From positions 1-35,924 of the forward strand of contig JANYAF010000205.1 in the NCBI GenBank assembly GCA_025355175.1: a stretch of 35,924 bases of DNA, written 5' to 3'. The DNA comes from Deltaproteobacteria bacterium (GTDB lineage: Bacteria; Desulfobacterota; Syntrophia; Syntrophales; Smithellaceae). The position numbers and the translations under genes were made by a program. Of this stretch, positions 1 through 7,158 are shown one piece after another. Below the pieces are notes generated by a model. That model made no database searches. It was not told the origin of the DNA and saw only the letters and a list, made by a program, of their open reading frames with translations. The number at the start of each line of letters is the position of its first letter. Position 1 is the stretch's first letter.

Positions 1-833
1 TCGAAACGTCCCCTCTTCTGACCATCCGCTCCGGTGAAGGCGCCTTTTTCATGACCGAAAAGCTCGCTGTCCAAAAGCGTGTCGGGAATGGCGCCGCAAT
101 TCACCTTGATAAAGGGGCCACCCCTGCGTTGGGAGGAATAATGGATGGCATTGGCGATCACGTCTTTGCCCGAGCCGGTCTCTCCCAGAAGCAGCACGGG
201 ACTGGTCAGCGGCGCCACCTGGCGGACCATGGCCATAATATCTTTCAATCCGGAGTTCTCGCCAATGATTTTGTCGCCGTAGATATCCCGCAGCTCTTTC
301 TGCAGGTAGCGGTTGTCATCCGCAAGCTTGTCTTTGAGATTGGACAGCTCGCGATGTTTCAAAGCGTTGTCCAGAGCAATGGTAAAGGGTTCGGCAACCA
401 GCGACAGCAAATGCGCATGCTCCTCCTGGTATTTGTTTTTACCGTCAGTCCGCATCGACAGGGCGCCGCCCCTGTCCTCGTCCATCATCAGATAGAGAAG
501 CATCACGGAAGAGTCAGACGGCTTTCCGCGGCGGATCATCGTTTTGACGAGAAGATCGCGCTCCGGATGATTAATGATCTTTACCGGTTCCGGCGACTCT
601 TCCAACTTCCCCCGCAGGGAGGTAACTTTATCGACAACAAAGCTTCCGGACGCACTGACGCGGGCGATGGTACGCATAGCGCTAAGTCCTGGTTCATAGA
701 GATGGAGCCCCATGGCATCGAGAGGCATGAATTCCCGTAAATATTGAAAAGCCCTGGCCAGGGCCGTCCTGATGTCCAGCGAGCCGCATACTCTTGTAGT
801 CACTTCCCTGAAAAAAACGTTTTCATCAATCAT
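1..833 (-). CDS. Sigma-54-dependent transcriptional activator (GAF + AAA+), 3' end outside window
   Basis: Reading leftward on the minus strand from ATG at 833 gives an open frame that runs off the window start (about 277 residues seen). The start is preceded by an AAGGGG-type ribosome site. The N-terminal ~155 residues look like a GAF sensor domain. Next comes a sigma-54 interaction/AAA+ domain with a Walker A (GETGSGKD) and the diagnostic GAFTGA loop that contacts sigma-54 (about 30-50 bases from the window edge). The rest of the AAA+ domain and the expected DNA-binding helix-turn-helix lie outside. It is divergent from the oxidoreductase operon at 1359, which has a sigma-54-type promoter and three upstream dyads, so it is the obvious candidate activator of that operon. 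There is no receiver domain at the N terminus, so it probably senses a small molecule directly. The ligand cannot be told from sequence. Family call is firm; target is inferred. Confidence 0.93.
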   Translation of the reverse strand, partial: MIDENVFFREVTTRVCGSLDIRTALARAFQYLREFMPLDAMGLHLYEPGLSAMRTIARVSASGSFVVDKVTSLRGKLEESPEPVKIINHPERDLLVKTMIRRGKPSDSSVMLLYLMMDEDRGGALSMRTDGKNKYQEEHAHLLSLVAEPFTIALDNALKHRELSNLKDKLADDNRYLQKELRDIYGDKIIGENSGLKDIMAMVRQVAPLTSPVLLLGETGSGKDVIANAIHYSSQRRGGPFIKVNCGAIPDTLLDSELFGHEKGAFTGADGQKRGRF

Positions 834-1106: not shown

Positions 1107-1124
1107 ATTGCCCCTTGAGGCAAT
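1107..1124. promoter_or_regulatory. Upstream activator dyad 1 (putative bEBP site)
   Basis: ATTGCCCCTTGAGGCAAT: inverted repeat ATTGCC / GGCAAT with a 6-bp centre. It is the first of three related 18-bp sites, about 130 bp upstream of the predicted sigma-54 start site, a usual distance for enhancer-binding activators. Assignment to the divergent activator is inference. Confidence 0.6.
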
Positions 1125-1127
1125 TAT

Positions 1128-1145
1128 TTTGTGCCAGAGGACAAT
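1128..1145. promoter_or_regulatory. Upstream activator site 2 (degenerate copy)
   Basis: TTTGTGCCAGAGGACAAT matches site 3 at 14 of 18 positions and lies 21 bp after site 1, so it would sit on the same helix face. It is less symmetric than the flanking copies. Confidence 0.5.
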
Positions 1146-1150
1146 CATTT

Positions 1151-1168
1151 ATTGCGCCATAGGGCAAT
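1151..1168. promoter_or_regulatory. Upstream activator dyad 3 (putative bEBP site)
   Basis: ATTGCGCCATAGGGCAAT has ATTGC / GCAAT arms, like site 1 (14 of 18 identical). It begins 23 bp after site 2 and ends about 50 bp before the -24 element. Confidence 0.6.
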
Positions 1169-1217: not shown

Positions 1218-1233
1218 TGGCACGATAATCGCT
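1218..1233 (+). promoter_or_regulatory. Sigma-54 (-24/-12) promoter
   Basis: TGGCACGATAATCGCT matches the sigma-54 consensus TGGCACG-N4-TTGCW except for one base (TCGC for TTGC). The invariant GG (1219-1220) and GC (1231-1232) have the required 12-bp offset. Transcription would start near 1244 and give a leader of about 115 nt before the gene at 1359. Confidence 0.72.
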
Positions 1234-1358: not shown

Positions 1359-4073
1359 ATGTCGTCATCACATGTAAAAGAAGGAAGAGATCTCACCAAA
1401 CACAATTCCGTTTTTGACGCCGTCGTTGTCGGCGCGGGAAACGGCGGCCTGACGGGGGCTCTCACCCTGTGCAAGGCAGGGAAAAAAGTGCTTCTGCTGG
1501 AACGTCACAACATCCCTGGCGGCTGCGGAACCACCTTCCGGCGCGGACGCTTCGAATTTGAAGTGGCGCTGCACCAGCTCTACGACATCAACAACAACTA
1601 CCGCGGCGAAAAAGGCTTCCTGCGCAGAATCTTCGAGGAGCTGAACGTCTGGAACAAAATCGATTTCGCCATGCAGAAGGACGCCTTTACCCTGGCCATT
1701 CCGGGCGTGGGCGAAATCACGCTGCCCGGCTCCCATGACGGTTTCGTGCAAAAGCTCCAGGAGATCGCTCCGGACAGTGCCGACGCAATCCGCGATTATC
1801 AGGCCCTGGTGGACAAAATCGGCGAAGAGTCGGGCCTGCTGTATGAAAGCATCGCCCAGGACGAACCGCTGACGCGCGAGAAGGCTCCTCTGATCTTCGA
1901 ATACGGGGCCAAAACCGGCAAGGAAGTGCTGGACCGATACTTTAAAAACCCGATGGTGAAAGGCGTGTACAAGGCGCTCTTCGGCTATCTGGGCATGCCC
2001 GTCGACCGGGTTCCTTTTATGGCTCTGGCCGCTCTGTATGCCCGGGGCGAAGGCACATCTTATGTCAAAGGCGGCTCCCAGGCCATGTCCAGCGCCATCG
2101 CTGATGAATTTATGGCAACGGGCGGAACCATCAAGTTCAACACGGCCGTGGAGAAAATTCTGGTGGAAGACGGTTCGGTCAGAGGCGTTCTGACGGATGC
2201 GGGCGAACTCTTCCGGACGGACACGGTCCTCTGCAACGCCAACCGGATCAATGTTTACGTGGATATGATCGACGAACAGCACGTTCCCGAAAGCGTGTTT
2301 GCGGATCTGCGGGTTTCCACCCCCAGCATGTCGTCGTTCGGTCTTTTTATCGGTCTTAACTGCACGGCCGAAGAAGCCGGCATCAAACATGCCACAAGCT
2401 TCATGGCCGCTCCGATGGGCGGCCCGCGAATGCGCTATGACGTGGGGCTGCGCCAGACCAACGTCATCCCCGGTGGATATATGTCCTGCTATAACATCGA
2501 TGATCCCGACGCCAGTCCGCAGGGAACCAGCGTCCTCACCATTCTTTCCAGCCAGATGGCCGATGCGTGGATCAGCCTGCCGCCCGAAAAATACCACGAC
2601 GCAAAAATGGAATACGCCGAAAAACTCCTCGACTTCCTGTATCAGTTTCACCCGAATATTCGCGGTCACATCGAAGAGATGGAAGCCTTCACTCCGATCA
2701 CGCTGATGCGGTATATCCATTCACCCGGCGGCTGCATTTACGGCGTGGATGCTTATTTCAAGGATCTGCTCGCCAACAAGATACAGGCCCGCTCCCCCAT
2801 CAAGGGACTTTACTTCTGCGGCGCTTCGCTGCTCTTCGGCGGTTTCAATACCACGCTGACATCCGGCTATACGGCGGCAAAACTGATCATCAAAGATTCG
2901 ACGGGCCGCGTACCCAAAGATCCCACAACGTTTGAAGGTTTGGACGGGCTGGATTCGATTCAAAAAGAAATTGAAGTCGGCAAACGATACAATCTCGATC
3001 ACCGGTGCAACCGGGGCGACATCAAACGGGCGCTGGACGTCCTTCATCCCCAAAGCATCGAATACCGGGTTACGGAAATCCGCAAAGAGACAAAAAGCGC
3101 CAAAACGATCCGTCTTGCGCCTGTGGGCGGATACCTTCCGCCGTTTGTTCCCGGCCAGTACATCAATCTGAACGTGGAAATCAAAGGCATCCGCACCAGC
3201 CGGCCTTACAGCATTTCCTCGCCCGCCACCGAGCGCTCGTATTATGAAATCACGGTGAGGAAAGCCAAAAACGGCTTTGTGTCGGACTACCTGCTCAAGG
3301 GGCTCACGGTCGGCGATCTGCTGACCAGTTCCGCACCTACGGGCCATTTCTATCGAATGGAGGCCGTGCACGGCAACAGAATGGTTTTCATTGCCGGCGG
3401 CTCGGGCATCACCCCGTTCATGAGCATGCTGCAAACCGATTTCGACAAATTAAACCGCAGCAATCAGGTCGATCTGATTTACGGCTGCGCCAGGCAGAAG
3501 GATATCCTTTTTGAATCGAGGCTTCGCAAACTTGAAAAGGAAGGACTCTTCAAGATGCATCCGGTTATTTCGGAACCGGATGCCGGATGCAGCGAGCGTC
3601 AGGGATTTATTACGGCGGACATCATCAAGGGTATTGCCGATGATGTTGCACAGTGTACATTTTTTCTTTGCGGCCCTACTGCCATGTATGATTTTGTCCT
3701 GCCCGAGCTTCAGAAGCTGGGCGTCACCGGCCGACAAATCCGCTGCGAAGTCCAAACGGCACCTGCTGATCCCACGCGGCTGCCCGGCTGGCCGGAGAGC
3801 GTGGGGGACAAGGATAAGTTTGCGATCACTCTGCCAGACGGCCGCAAGTTTAAGGCAAAAGCTACCGAAACCGTGCTTGCCGCCCTGGAGCGAGGCGGCG
3901 TGGTTGTACCCTCTTTGTGCCGCAGCGGCGAATGCAGTGCCTGCCGCGCCAAACTTATATCCGGTAAGGTATTTCACCCCGGGTCCGAACTGTTGCGCAA
4001 ATCGGATATGAGATTCGGGTATATTCATCCCTGCGTCACCTATCCAATCAGCGATATTGAAATTCTGCTGTAA
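1359..4073 (+). CDS. RetSat/CrtI-like FAD oxidoreductase fused to FNR reductase and 2Fe-2S ferredoxin
   Basis: A 904-residue, apparently cytoplasmic fusion. Residues ~18-515 are a flavin amine-oxidase-type fold closest in style to phytoene desaturase/retinol saturase proteins: dinucleotide loop VGAGNGG at 24-30 and a conserved PGG(C) turn after the first strand. Residues ~567-800 form a ferredoxin-NADP reductase module with the FAD motif RPYSIS (615-620), the nucleotide motif GGSGITPF (680-687) and CGPT (771-774). Residues ~820-904 are a plant-type ferredoxin with C854, C859, C862 and C892 as [2Fe-2S] ligands. Electrons would flow NAD(P)H to FAD to [2Fe-2S] to the second FAD, making the saturase-like domain self-sufficient, although the reverse direction is also possible. 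The substrate is unknown. ATG 1359 follows AAGGAGGG. It heads the operon behind the sigma-54 promoter and ends 31 bp before the dienoyl-CoA-reductase-like gene. Confidence 0.9.
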   Translation: MSSSHVKEGRDLTKHNSVFDAVVVGAGNGGLTGALTLCKAGKKVLLLERHNIPGGCGTTFRRGRFEFEVALHQLYDINNNYRGEKGFLRRIFEELNVWNKIDFAMQKDAFTLAIPGVGEITLPGSHDGFVQKLQEIAPDSADAIRDYQALVDKIGEESGLLYESIAQDEPLTREKAPLIFEYGAKTGKEVLDRYFKNPMVKGVYKALFGYLGMPVDRVPFMALAALYARGEGTSYVKGGSQAMSSAIADEFMATGGTIKFNTAVEKILVEDGSVRGVLTDAGELFRTDTVLCNANRINVYVDMIDEQHVPESVFADLRVSTPSMSSFGLFIGLNCTAEEAGIKHATSFMAAPMGGPRMRYDVGLRQTNVIPGGYMSCYNIDDPDASPQGTSVLTILSSQMADAWISLPPEKYHDAKMEYAEKLLDFLYQFHPNIRGHIEEMEAFTPITLMRYIHSPGGCIYGVDAYFKDLLANKIQARSPIKGLYFCGASLLFGGFNTTLTSGYTAAKLIIKDSTGRVPKDPTTFEGLDGLDSIQKEIEVGKRYNLDHRCNRGDIKRALDVLHPQSIEYRVTEIRKETKSAKTIRLAPVGGYLPPFVPGQYINLNVEIKGIRTSRPYSISSPATERSYYEITVRKAKNGFVSDYLLKGLTVGDLLTSSAPTGHFYRMEAVHGNRMVFIAGGSGITPFMSMLQTDFDKLNRSNQVDLIYGCARQKDILFESRLRKLEKEGLFKMHPVISEPDAGCSERQGFITADIIKGIADDVAQCTFFLCGPTAMYDFVLPELQKLGVTGRQIRCEVQTAPADPTRLPGWPESVGDKDKFAITLPDGRKFKAKATETVLAALERGGVVVPSLCRSGECSACRAKLISGKVFHPGSELLRKSDMRFGYIHPCVTYPISDIEILL

Positions 4074-4104
4074 GGCATACCAACTTGATACGGAGATTTA
4101 TATC

Positions 4105-6162
4105 ATGGAAATTTTGAACAAATTATCTCAGACAAATTCAGACAAGCAGCAAAAGGGGCGGAGAGACGATATCCTTTTTTCACCCGTTACCATCAACAAG
4201 ATGGTCGTCCCCAATCGCATTCTGATGCCGGCCATGCACCTCAACATGGTTACGACACCGTATATCAACGATCGGATCATCGCCTTCTACGCTGCACGGG
4301 CGCGCGGAGGCGCAGGCGTCTTGATCGCCGGCTATGCCGGCGTCAATGAATCTTCCGGTGGCGGCGTCATCGGCGCGTATGCCGATGATTTCATCGGGGG
4401 GCTGTCGCATTTGCGTAAAGCCATGCAACTGGGCGGCGGAAAAGCGGGCCTGCAATTGAACCACGCGGGTCGATACGCCCATTCCATCATGATGGAAGGA
4501 AAGCAGGCCGTGGCGCCATCCGCCGTCTTCTCCAATTTTACACATGAAACGCCGCGGGCGTTGGAATTGGAAGAAATCAAACAGACAATCCAGGATTTCG
4601 CCGATGCGGCCATCCGAACGAAAAAAGCGGGATTTGATTTTGTCGAGATCCTGGCCGGAACGGGCTATCTCATCAGCCAATTTCTATCCGACCTGACGAA
4701 TCAGCGGGATGACGAATACGGCGGGTCGTGGGAAAACCGCATGCGCTTTGGACTGGAAATCGCTTCCGCCGTCCGCAAGGCCGTGGGAAGCGACTATCCG
4801 GTGATGTGGCGGATCAATGGCAATGATTTGATGGTCAACGGGATCGGAAGAATCCGCCTTCAGGAATACGCCGCGCTGATCGTTAAAAACGGCGCAGATG
4901 CCATCTCCGTAAATGTCGGATGGCACGAAGCACGGGTGCCGCAGCTCGTTACGGAAGTGCCGCGCGCCGCCTATGCTTATCTGGCCAGGGGAATCAAGGA
5001 ATGCGTCAACGTTCCGGTCATCGCCGGGCACCGCATCAACGATCCGCAAACGGCCCGCCAGATGATCGAGGACGACCTCTGCGACATGGTGGCCATGGGC
5101 CGGCCGCTGATTGCCGATCCCGACCTGCCGAAAAAGACGGCTGAAAACAGAGAAAACGAAATCATTCACTGCATCGCCTGCGCTCAGGGATGTTTCGATC
5201 ACCTCTTCGTGGTGCAGCCTGTGGAATGCCTGTGCAACCCCGAGGCAGGACATGAACTCACGGCCGTTTCCGGAAAAACGGATACCCCAAAGAAAATCCT
5301 CGTCTGCGGGGGCGGCCCCGCTGGAATGGCCGCTGCAGCCGCGGCGGCCCAGCGCGGTCATGATGTGGTGCTGTATGAAAGAAGCGGACAACTCGGAGGA
5401 CAACTCCTGATCGCCGGAAGCCCTCCCGGCCGCGAAGAATTTACTGTACTGGCCTCGGATCTGCAGGCTCAACTGGAACCGAGCGGCGTAAAGAAAGTGG
5501 TCCTCGGCGAAGAAGTGAATGAAGACATCATCGCCAGGGAAAAACCGGATATTGTTCTATTGGCAACCGGCGCTGTGGAAATTGTACCGAACATTCCGGG
5601 CGCCACGCTCCCTCATGTGGTGAGCGCCTGGGATGTTTTGGCCGGGCGGGTTGGGACCGGAAAGAGCGTTGCGATCATCGGCGGCGGCGCGGTTGGTGTG
5701 GAAACGGCGATCTTTCTGGCCCAGAAGGGCACCCTACCCGCCGATGCCCTCAAATTTCTTTTTATCAACAGGGCAGAACCCGTCGAGGACCTTTACAGAC
5801 TCTCAACGATCGGAACCAAGAAAGTTGTCATCATCGAGATGCTCGAACACGTCGGCGCGGATATCGGAAAGTCAACAAGGTGGGGGATGATGCAGGATAT
5901 GCACCGCCATCGCGTGCGGATCAAGACAAACACGAGGGCGAAGGAAATTACGCCGACCGGTGTTATTGCCGAAACCGCAGACGGCATGCAGGAAATTCCC
6001 GCCGACACCATTGTGCTGGCCCTGGGATCCAGATCATACAATCCGCTGGAGGAAATATTTAAAAAAAAGGGCATTCCTTATCGGGTTATCGGCGATGCCC
6101 GACAGATCGCCAAAGCGTTTGACGCTATTCACGAAGGGCATCACGTCGCTTGTGAAATATAA
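4105..6162 (+). CDS. 2,4-dienoyl-CoA reductase-like Fe-S flavoenzyme (OYE/FadH family)
   Basis: A 685-residue protein with the layout of FadH, trimethylamine dehydrogenase and bile-acid BaiCD/BaiH enzymes. It has an FMN-binding old-yellow-enzyme barrel (~22-345), a [4Fe-4S] loop (C356, C359, C363, with C375 as likely fourth ligand), then FAD and NAD(P) Rossmann domains (GGGPAG at 402-407; GGGAVG at 526-531). Y188 (in GYLI) and H274 (in GWHEAR) align with the proton-donor Tyr and His of E. coli FadH, which favours reduction of a conjugated dienoyl- or enoyl-CoA. A longer frame exists from TTG 4057, overlapping the previous stop. I prefer ATG 4105, which follows CGGAGA and gives a family-like N terminus. 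The tight spacing to the upstream fusion gene indicates co-transcription. The exact substrate is not determined, and a steroid- or bile-acid-like enone remains possible. Confidence 0.9.
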   Translation: MEILNKLSQTNSDKQQKGRRDDILFSPVTINKMVVPNRILMPAMHLNMVTTPYINDRIIAFYAARARGGAGVLIAGYAGVNESSGGGVIGAYADDFIGGLSHLRKAMQLGGGKAGLQLNHAGRYAHSIMMEGKQAVAPSAVFSNFTHETPRALELEEIKQTIQDFADAAIRTKKAGFDFVEILAGTGYLISQFLSDLTNQRDDEYGGSWENRMRFGLEIASAVRKAVGSDYPVMWRINGNDLMVNGIGRIRLQEYAALIVKNGADAISVNVGWHEARVPQLVTEVPRAAYAYLARGIKECVNVPVIAGHRINDPQTARQMIEDDLCDMVAMGRPLIADPDLPKKTAENRENEIIHCIACAQGCFDHLFVVQPVECLCNPEAGHELTAVSGKTDTPKKILVCGGGPAGMAAAAAAAQRGHDVVLYERSGQLGGQLLIAGSPPGREEFTVLASDLQAQLEPSGVKKVVLGEEVNEDIIAREKPDIVLLATGAVEIVPNIPGATLPHVVSAWDVLAGRVGTGKSVAIIGGGAVGVETAIFLAQKGTLPADALKFLFINRAEPVEDLYRLSTIGTKKVVIIEMLEHVGADIGKSTRWGMMQDMHRHRVRIKTNTRAKEITPTGVIAETADGMQEIPADTIVLALGSRSYNPLEEIFKKKGIPYRVIGDARQIAKAFDAIHEGHHVACEI

Positions 6163-6354: not shown

Positions 6355-7158
6355 ATGAGTGAACTGGTGAAGATTACAATCGAAAACAACGTAGCGGATG
6401 TCCGCTTTAACAGGCCTGAGAAATACAACGCCCTGAGCTTTGATATGATTGATGCCATGGCCAACGCCATTAACCGACTGGCCAAGGAACCCGGAGTCCG
6501 GGTTGTTGTCATCTCCGGCGAGGGCAAGAGCTTCTGCGCCGGGCTGGATGTTGAAAACTTCGCGGCCCTGCAATCCGGAGAAAATAAGTTTCCCAATCTT
6601 ACGGATCGATACCAAAACCGGATTTCCAATATCTATCAGCATATCGGATTTGGGTGGAAAGAGCTTCCCGTGCCGGTGATCGCGGCCATTCATGGCGTAG
6701 CGCTGGGCGGCGGTTTTCAGATCGCCATGGGGGCGGACATTCGGTTCAGCACACCCGACGCCAAATTCTCGCTCATGGAAATGAAATGGGGATTGATTCC
6801 GGATATGAGCGTGACCCAGACCATCCGTGATATCGTGTCGATTGACGTGGCCAAGGAACTGATCTTTACGGGTAAAATCATCAAAGGCGAAGAAGCGGCC
6901 CGCTTGAATCTGGTGACGCACATCTCAGAAAAACCCTATGACGACGCCATGACCCTGGCCCGGGAAATCGCCTCCAAAAATCCCGATGCCGTGCGCGCGG
7001 CGAAAAAACTCATCAACGAAGTATGGCATGGCGACTCAGGCCTCGGCCTGATGATGGAATCCGAACTGATGATGACGCTCATGGGAAGTCCGAACCAACT
7101 GGAGGCGGTTGCCGCCAACTTTACTCAGAATCCGCCTAAGTTCAAGGACCCGGTGTGA
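6355..7158 (+). CDS. Crotonase-family protein (enoyl-CoA hydratase/isomerase, atypical active site)
   Basis: A 267-residue crotonase-fold protein with both oxyanion-hole segments (CAGLD at 61-65; GVALGGGF at 114-121). At the two positions that hold catalytic glutamates in rat hydratase, the first is Gln (Q122) and the second is Glu (E142). Asp150 sits eight residues after E142, the same E/D spacing as the dienoyl-CoA isomerase ECH1, whose third acid is replaced here by Q122. A simple hydratase is therefore less likely than an isomerase-type reaction. The many crotonase subfamilies with a WGLIPD-type motif have few tested members. ATG 6355 follows AAAGGAAAAGG. Position after the dienoyl-CoA-reductase-like gene supports a shared unsaturated acyl-CoA pathway, though a 192-bp gap with a possible promoter separates them. 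Confidence 0.88.
   Translation: MSELVKITIENNVADVRFNRPEKYNALSFDMIDAMANAINRLAKEPGVRVVVISGEGKSFCAGLDVENFAALQSGENKFPNLTDRYQNRISNIYQHIGFGWKELPVPVIAAIHGVALGGGFQIAMGADIRFSTPDAKFSLMEMKWGLIPDMSVTQTIRDIVSIDVAKELIFTGKIIKGEEAARLNLVTHISEKPYDDAMTLAREIASKNPDAVRAAKKLINEVWHGDSGLGLMMESELMMTLMGSPNQLEAVAANFTQNPPKFKDPV

Follow-up and report, generated by a model that had tools for sequence, protein, structure and literature searches.

The three tandem dyads that precede a -24/-12 promoter in this DNA are very probably the cognate enhancer of a divergently encoded sigma-54 activator, which is predicted to control an oxidoreductase operon through them. We assign the dyads to this activator because its relatives in many other bacteria are accompanied by these sites too, equally far from a promoter, even where the target genes are others. 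Sigma-54 enhancers with cognate activators are a well-known kind of system. In sulfate reducers and their relatives, sigma-54 activators are numerous, and the sites and targets of many of them are not known. The window, i.e. the whole stretch of 35,924 nucleotides that was analysed, starts with the leftward activator gene, followed by the three dyads, the -24/-12 box and the rightward gene for the first oxidoreductase (Table 1). An earlier note on this DNA had proposed that dyads, promoter and divergent activator form one control unit, and this proposal is supported by conservation, geometry, protein domains and the presence of the sigma-54 gene rpoN in the same genome (PF04552 match, 4.5e-65).

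Table 1 Features of the window
Feature	Position	Strand	Description
Contig (identical to the window)	1-35,924		one of 280 contigs of a 2.9 Mb genome
Divergent sigma-54 activator	3-833	-	GAF-like sensor and start of AAA+ domain with GAFTGA
Distal dyad ATTGCCCCTTGAGGCAAT	1107-1124 (core 1108-1123)		predicted activator site 1; read from the sequence
Middle dyad TTTGTGCCAGAGGACAAT	1128-1145 (core 1129-1144)		predicted activator site 2; weakest palindrome
Promoter-proximal dyad ATTGCGCCATAGGGCAAT	1151-1168 (core 1152-1167)		predicted activator site 3
-24/-12 sigma-54 promoter TGGCACGATAATCGCT	1218-1233	+	predicted from sequence and conservation in G102, G131 and G020
Predicted first target gene	1359-4073	+	CrtI/amine-oxidase-like flavoprotein fused to BenC/PaaE-like NAD(P)H:2Fe-2S reductase, 904 aa
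Predicted second target gene	4057-6162	+	old-yellow-enzyme/FadH-type (BaiCD-like) oxidoreductase
Enoyl-CoA hydratase family gene	6355-7158	+	possibly third gene of the operon; preceded by a 193 bp gap

The dyad array and its promoter

The dyads described in the earlier note could be read directly from the sequence: their starts are 21 and 23 bp apart, and identity is 14 of 18 positions for sites 1 and 3 as well as for sites 2 and 3. Palindromic matches amount to 7 of 9 in sites 1 and 3 and to 5 of 9 in site 2. An exact match to the ATTGC-N8-GCAAT core that had been proposed is present only in sites 1 and 3, and site 2 requires the relaxed form TTGY-N8-RCAA, which fits all three sites and is also retained in relatives. 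Another search pattern, TTGNNCCNNNRGGNCAA, was dropped because it is one base too long and misses the window's own sites.

The clustering of the dyads in the window is beyond chance. A motif-blind score for three similar, phased palindromes reached 38 at the array, the maximum in 2,000 dinucleotide shuffles was 32 (none of them equalled the dyad triple), and the best of 135 other chunks of the window scored 30. Lone matches to TTGY-N8-RCAA are unremarkable (5 in the window versus 3.2 expected from shuffling), and sequences close to ATTGC-N8-GCAAT show no enrichment across the window. In the 2.9 Mb genome, the tandem-dyad pattern was found at this array and at one further place (C238), which we did not count as a site because it reads as coding sequence and is shared with genome G117. 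The combined pattern of dyad, 50 bp and promoter occurs at a single place in this genome, the locus studied here. Directly upstream of the array, a C-/G-rich inverted repeat with 35-nt arms (71% complementary) occupies positions 981-1066.

In the predicted promoter, the GG and GC of the -24/-12 element are correctly spaced; the -12 part, TCGCT, deviates from TTGCW, yet it is the same in all three close orthologues. From the position of the box, transcription is predicted to start near 1244, so that the sites lie 76-137 bp upstream of the start, as had been stated. The core of the proximal dyad begins 66 bp before the -24 box. At and after the predicted start, in the putative leader, a 16-bp direct repeat TGGCARTAAAACCGTA is present at 1244-1259 and 1296-1311; G131 shows a similar pair and G102 does not.

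The first dyad was also flagged as terminator-like on the plus strand, and all three could in principle be RNA hairpins or terminators instead of protein sites. We consider this extremely improbable, since the TTGY...RCAA ends are kept while the middle varies, the pairing is imperfect (5-7 of 9), and the dyads stand in tandem at a set distance from the promoter, upstream of the predicted start.

Conservation of the array beside related activators

Poor conservation in the orthologous gaps had been named in the earlier note as a finding that would refute the proposed control unit. Conservation is in fact strong: array and promoter distance are retained in all three close orthologous loci, with three dyads in G102, three in G131 and two in G020, at spacings of 21-23 bp. 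The counterpart of the distal dyad stands at the equivalent position as TTGCCCCATTGGGCAA in G102 and as TTGCTCTATAAGACAA in G131, the middle dyad is retained in all three loci, and the proximal dyad starts 66 bp (G102 and G131) or 67 bp (G020) before the -24 box. The core ends of these dyads are constant, and their middles and flanks vary. G020 has the array although a nitronate-monooxygenase-like gene takes the place of the flavoprotein gene opposite the activator; the array therefore follows the activator. On the same contig of G020 lies another operon, with genes for an enoyl-CoA hydratase and a further nitronate-monooxygenase-like protein; in front of it the proximal dyad recurs unchanged as TTGCGCTATAGGACAA, 66-67 bp before the matching promoter TGGCATGATAATCGCT.

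We extended the comparison to 80 activator homologues obtained from a scan of named genomes. Their upstream regions together contain 53 TTGY-N8-RCAA dyads, where dinucleotide shuffles gave an expectation of 4.1. Each of the 15 closest homologues in this named set (L109-L123) has at least one dyad, and homologues with 42-48% identity in the sensor domain retain TTGY-N8-RCAA arrays despite differing downstream genes. According to the record labels, the site-bearing homologues belong to Thermodesulfobacteriota, Calditrichota, Gemmatimonadota and others. No such array was present in 12 more distant homologues (L020-L022 and L024-L032; about 33-41% identity). Since the strict motif is absent from many homologues below about 42% identity, some of which show TTAC-type variants, the specificity drifts with distance. 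Residues HG and PSTLR of the helix-turn-helix were considered as determinants of the motif and rejected: the association by simple count (Fisher p 9e-8) gave way to a median p of 0.25 when relatedness was allowed for.

The position of the dyads is tied to the target promoter and not to the activator gene. In 14 of 23 scored loci, the window included, the proximal dyad starts 65-68 bp before the -24 box whatever gene follows, and in most of the remaining loci the strict dyad is found one step farther out, often with a degenerate proximal copy. By comparison, dyad and activator gene are separated by anything between about 50 and more than 300 bp. Among the products encoded downstream of the arrays are the flavoprotein of the window, a nitronate-monooxygenase-like enzyme, small uncharacterised proteins and hydrolase-like proteins; judged from these comparisons, the dyads travel with the activator and not with the target. 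The array also makes a clean test case: target operons differ from locus to locus, and the site stays the same.

These observations bear on the possibility that the dyads are operators of another regulator, such as a repressor or a sensor of redox state or metabolites, and that the activator binds elsewhere. Three palindromes closely upstream of a promoter would suit such a regulator too, but the motif goes with the relatives of the activator across many families and several phyla, in front of any downstream operon, and its distance is fixed relative to a sigma-54 promoter; we therefore regard this reading as very unlikely. An addition to the assignment as activator sites, rather than an alternative to it, would be a two-way array through which the activator also controls its own gene, by repression or activation. 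This is conceivable but rather doubtful: in several relatives the array and the start codon of the activator are within 24-100 bp of each other, whereas 274 bp separate them in the window, this separation is not a conserved feature, and no promoter was identified for the activator gene. In G102, activator and array are about 200 bp closer together than in the window. The activator leader contains about 41 bp (866-906) of a repeat that is dispersed over the genome in about 40 copies, mostly 83-97% identical.

The suggestion that all sites face one side of the helix fits the spacings of 21 and 23 bp in the window and does not hold generally in relatives. Their spacings cluster at 22 bp (19-23 bp) and at 28-30 bp, and because many of them use the longer gaps, the one-face arrangement is not a family rule; helical phasing was rejected as such (mean resultant 0.46 at 10.5 bp).

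A protein of about 90 amino acids starting with MKW/MQW/MRWxExIxLR recurs as the first gene after the promoters of homologous activators (L113, L114, L115, L116, L117, L118, L126, L138, L153, L155, L177 and L180) and stands second in L112. Two examples of this protein matched no Pfam family.

The activator and related regulatory systems

Because the window is a whole contig, the activator is incomplete at its edge. The fragment matches Sigma54_activat (PF00158; 1.4e-31) and has the GAFTGA motif, which confirms that it is a sigma-54 activator. Its intact orthologue in G102 is 94% identical and comprises 507 amino acids with an AAA+ domain, lid and HTH_8. The HTH_8 domain was observed in orthologues only, since the copy in the window ends before the DNA-binding half; a search for the missing half in the rest of the assembly revealed only other activators (best identity 51%). 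The note had further called the protein a GAF-AAA+ activator. Here the Pfam match of the N-terminal region to GAF_2 stays below the cut-off (14.9 versus 28.6 bits), and the assignment is based on the predicted fold: an AlphaFold2 model of the N-terminal 190 residues had a pLDDT of 84, and its best fold matches are GAF domains. According to this model, the sensor has a GAF fold. Among the best matches is the GAF domain of a Chlorobium tepidum sigma-54 regulator (PDB 3k2n; TM 0.65/0.69), which resembles the sensor in fold and differs from it in sequence (16% identity). The best NCBIfam matches of the incomplete activator, both far under the cut-off, are NifA and FhlA, and Pfam found no V4R/XylR_N domain in the intact orthologue.

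XylR/DmpR-type upstream activating sites have the form TTGA-N8-TCAA. The dyads resemble them in the TTG...CAA palindrome ends, in the length of 16 bp and in their tandem position upstream of a -24/-12 promoter. They differ in the fourth base, which is C or T and not A in all three sites of the window, in their number of three with the proximal centre near -84, and in the sensor of the neighbouring activator, which is GAF-like and has no V4R/XylR_N domain. Among the recognised classes considered, the XylR-type site is thus nearest in length and ends, but it does not fit. Pu has two XylR-type sites and an IHF site (PMC3900584), and for mphR the activator gene is divergent, as in the window (PMC3063778).

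TGT-N10-12-ACA, the FhlA/NifA site class, is the commonest in the sigma-54 regulons of Clostridiales (PMC6615313). Like the dyads, these sites are inverted repeats upstream of sigma-54 promoters, and the activator shares the NifA-like GAF-AAA-HTH architecture. Spacer and ends are different: a TGT/ACA pair is missing from sites 1 and 3, and the pair in site 2 has a shorter spacer (TGT-N8-ACA), so that the dyads do not match TGT-N10-12-ACA, and the view that the motif is distinct from FhlA sites stands. Desulfovibrio vulgaris is described, in the main text of PMC4641369, as having 37 sigma-54 activators, of which three are one-component proteins with GAF domains, and a sigma-54 promoter consensus of tGGcacg...tTGCt. 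Its regulons are there likewise organised in local activator-operon units; that main text gives no TTGC-N8-GCAA site. In a limited literature, considered as text, in which motif logos could escape notice, we found no published description of a TTGY-N8-RCAA site.

It is slightly more likely than not that a large, unstudied GAF-AAA+-HTH_8 family distributed over several phyla shares an undescribed TTRYCRTATAYGRYAA-like code (TTGY-N8-RCAA in this branch) together with a promoter grammar, with centres near -84, -106 and -128 or -134. If this is true, the regulons of the family would be readable from sequence alone. A motif at a fixed distance from the promoter allows targets to be assigned to activators computationally, and in the present case it would connect an unstudied flavin-oxidoreductase operon, from an uncultured bacterium, with a single activator encoded nearby.

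Predicted mode of action and target operon

The layout is in keeping with a standard enhancer unit. Each dyad would be occupied by one activator dimer, with the C-terminal Fis-type HTH as the DNA-binding part; the dyad centres are at about -84, -107 and -128. The GAF-like domain would receive the signal, probably a small molecule, upon which the DNA-bound dimers may form the active AAA+ ring. The stretch of DNA from the proximal dyad to -24 would then bend, in a presumed loop, and bring the GAFTGA loops into contact with the sigma-54 polymerase waiting at the promoter, which would be opened to switch on the oxidoreductase operon, of putative extent, from about position 1244.

The gene order of this operon, the enoyl-CoA hydratase gene included, is retained in G102. 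The start of the second target gene is uncertain, as relatives align from residue 17 (about position 4105). The fused flavoprotein-reductase has counterparts with 82% identity at the equivalent place in G102 and G131, and its two halves are separate genes in other genomes. Since the flanking genes are 94-98% identical to those of G102 and the fusion is only 82% identical, the fusion gene seems, from this comparison, either to change faster than its neighbours or to be a replacement. The gene set suggests that an unsaturated or cyclic acid is reduced and then degraded by beta-oxidation.
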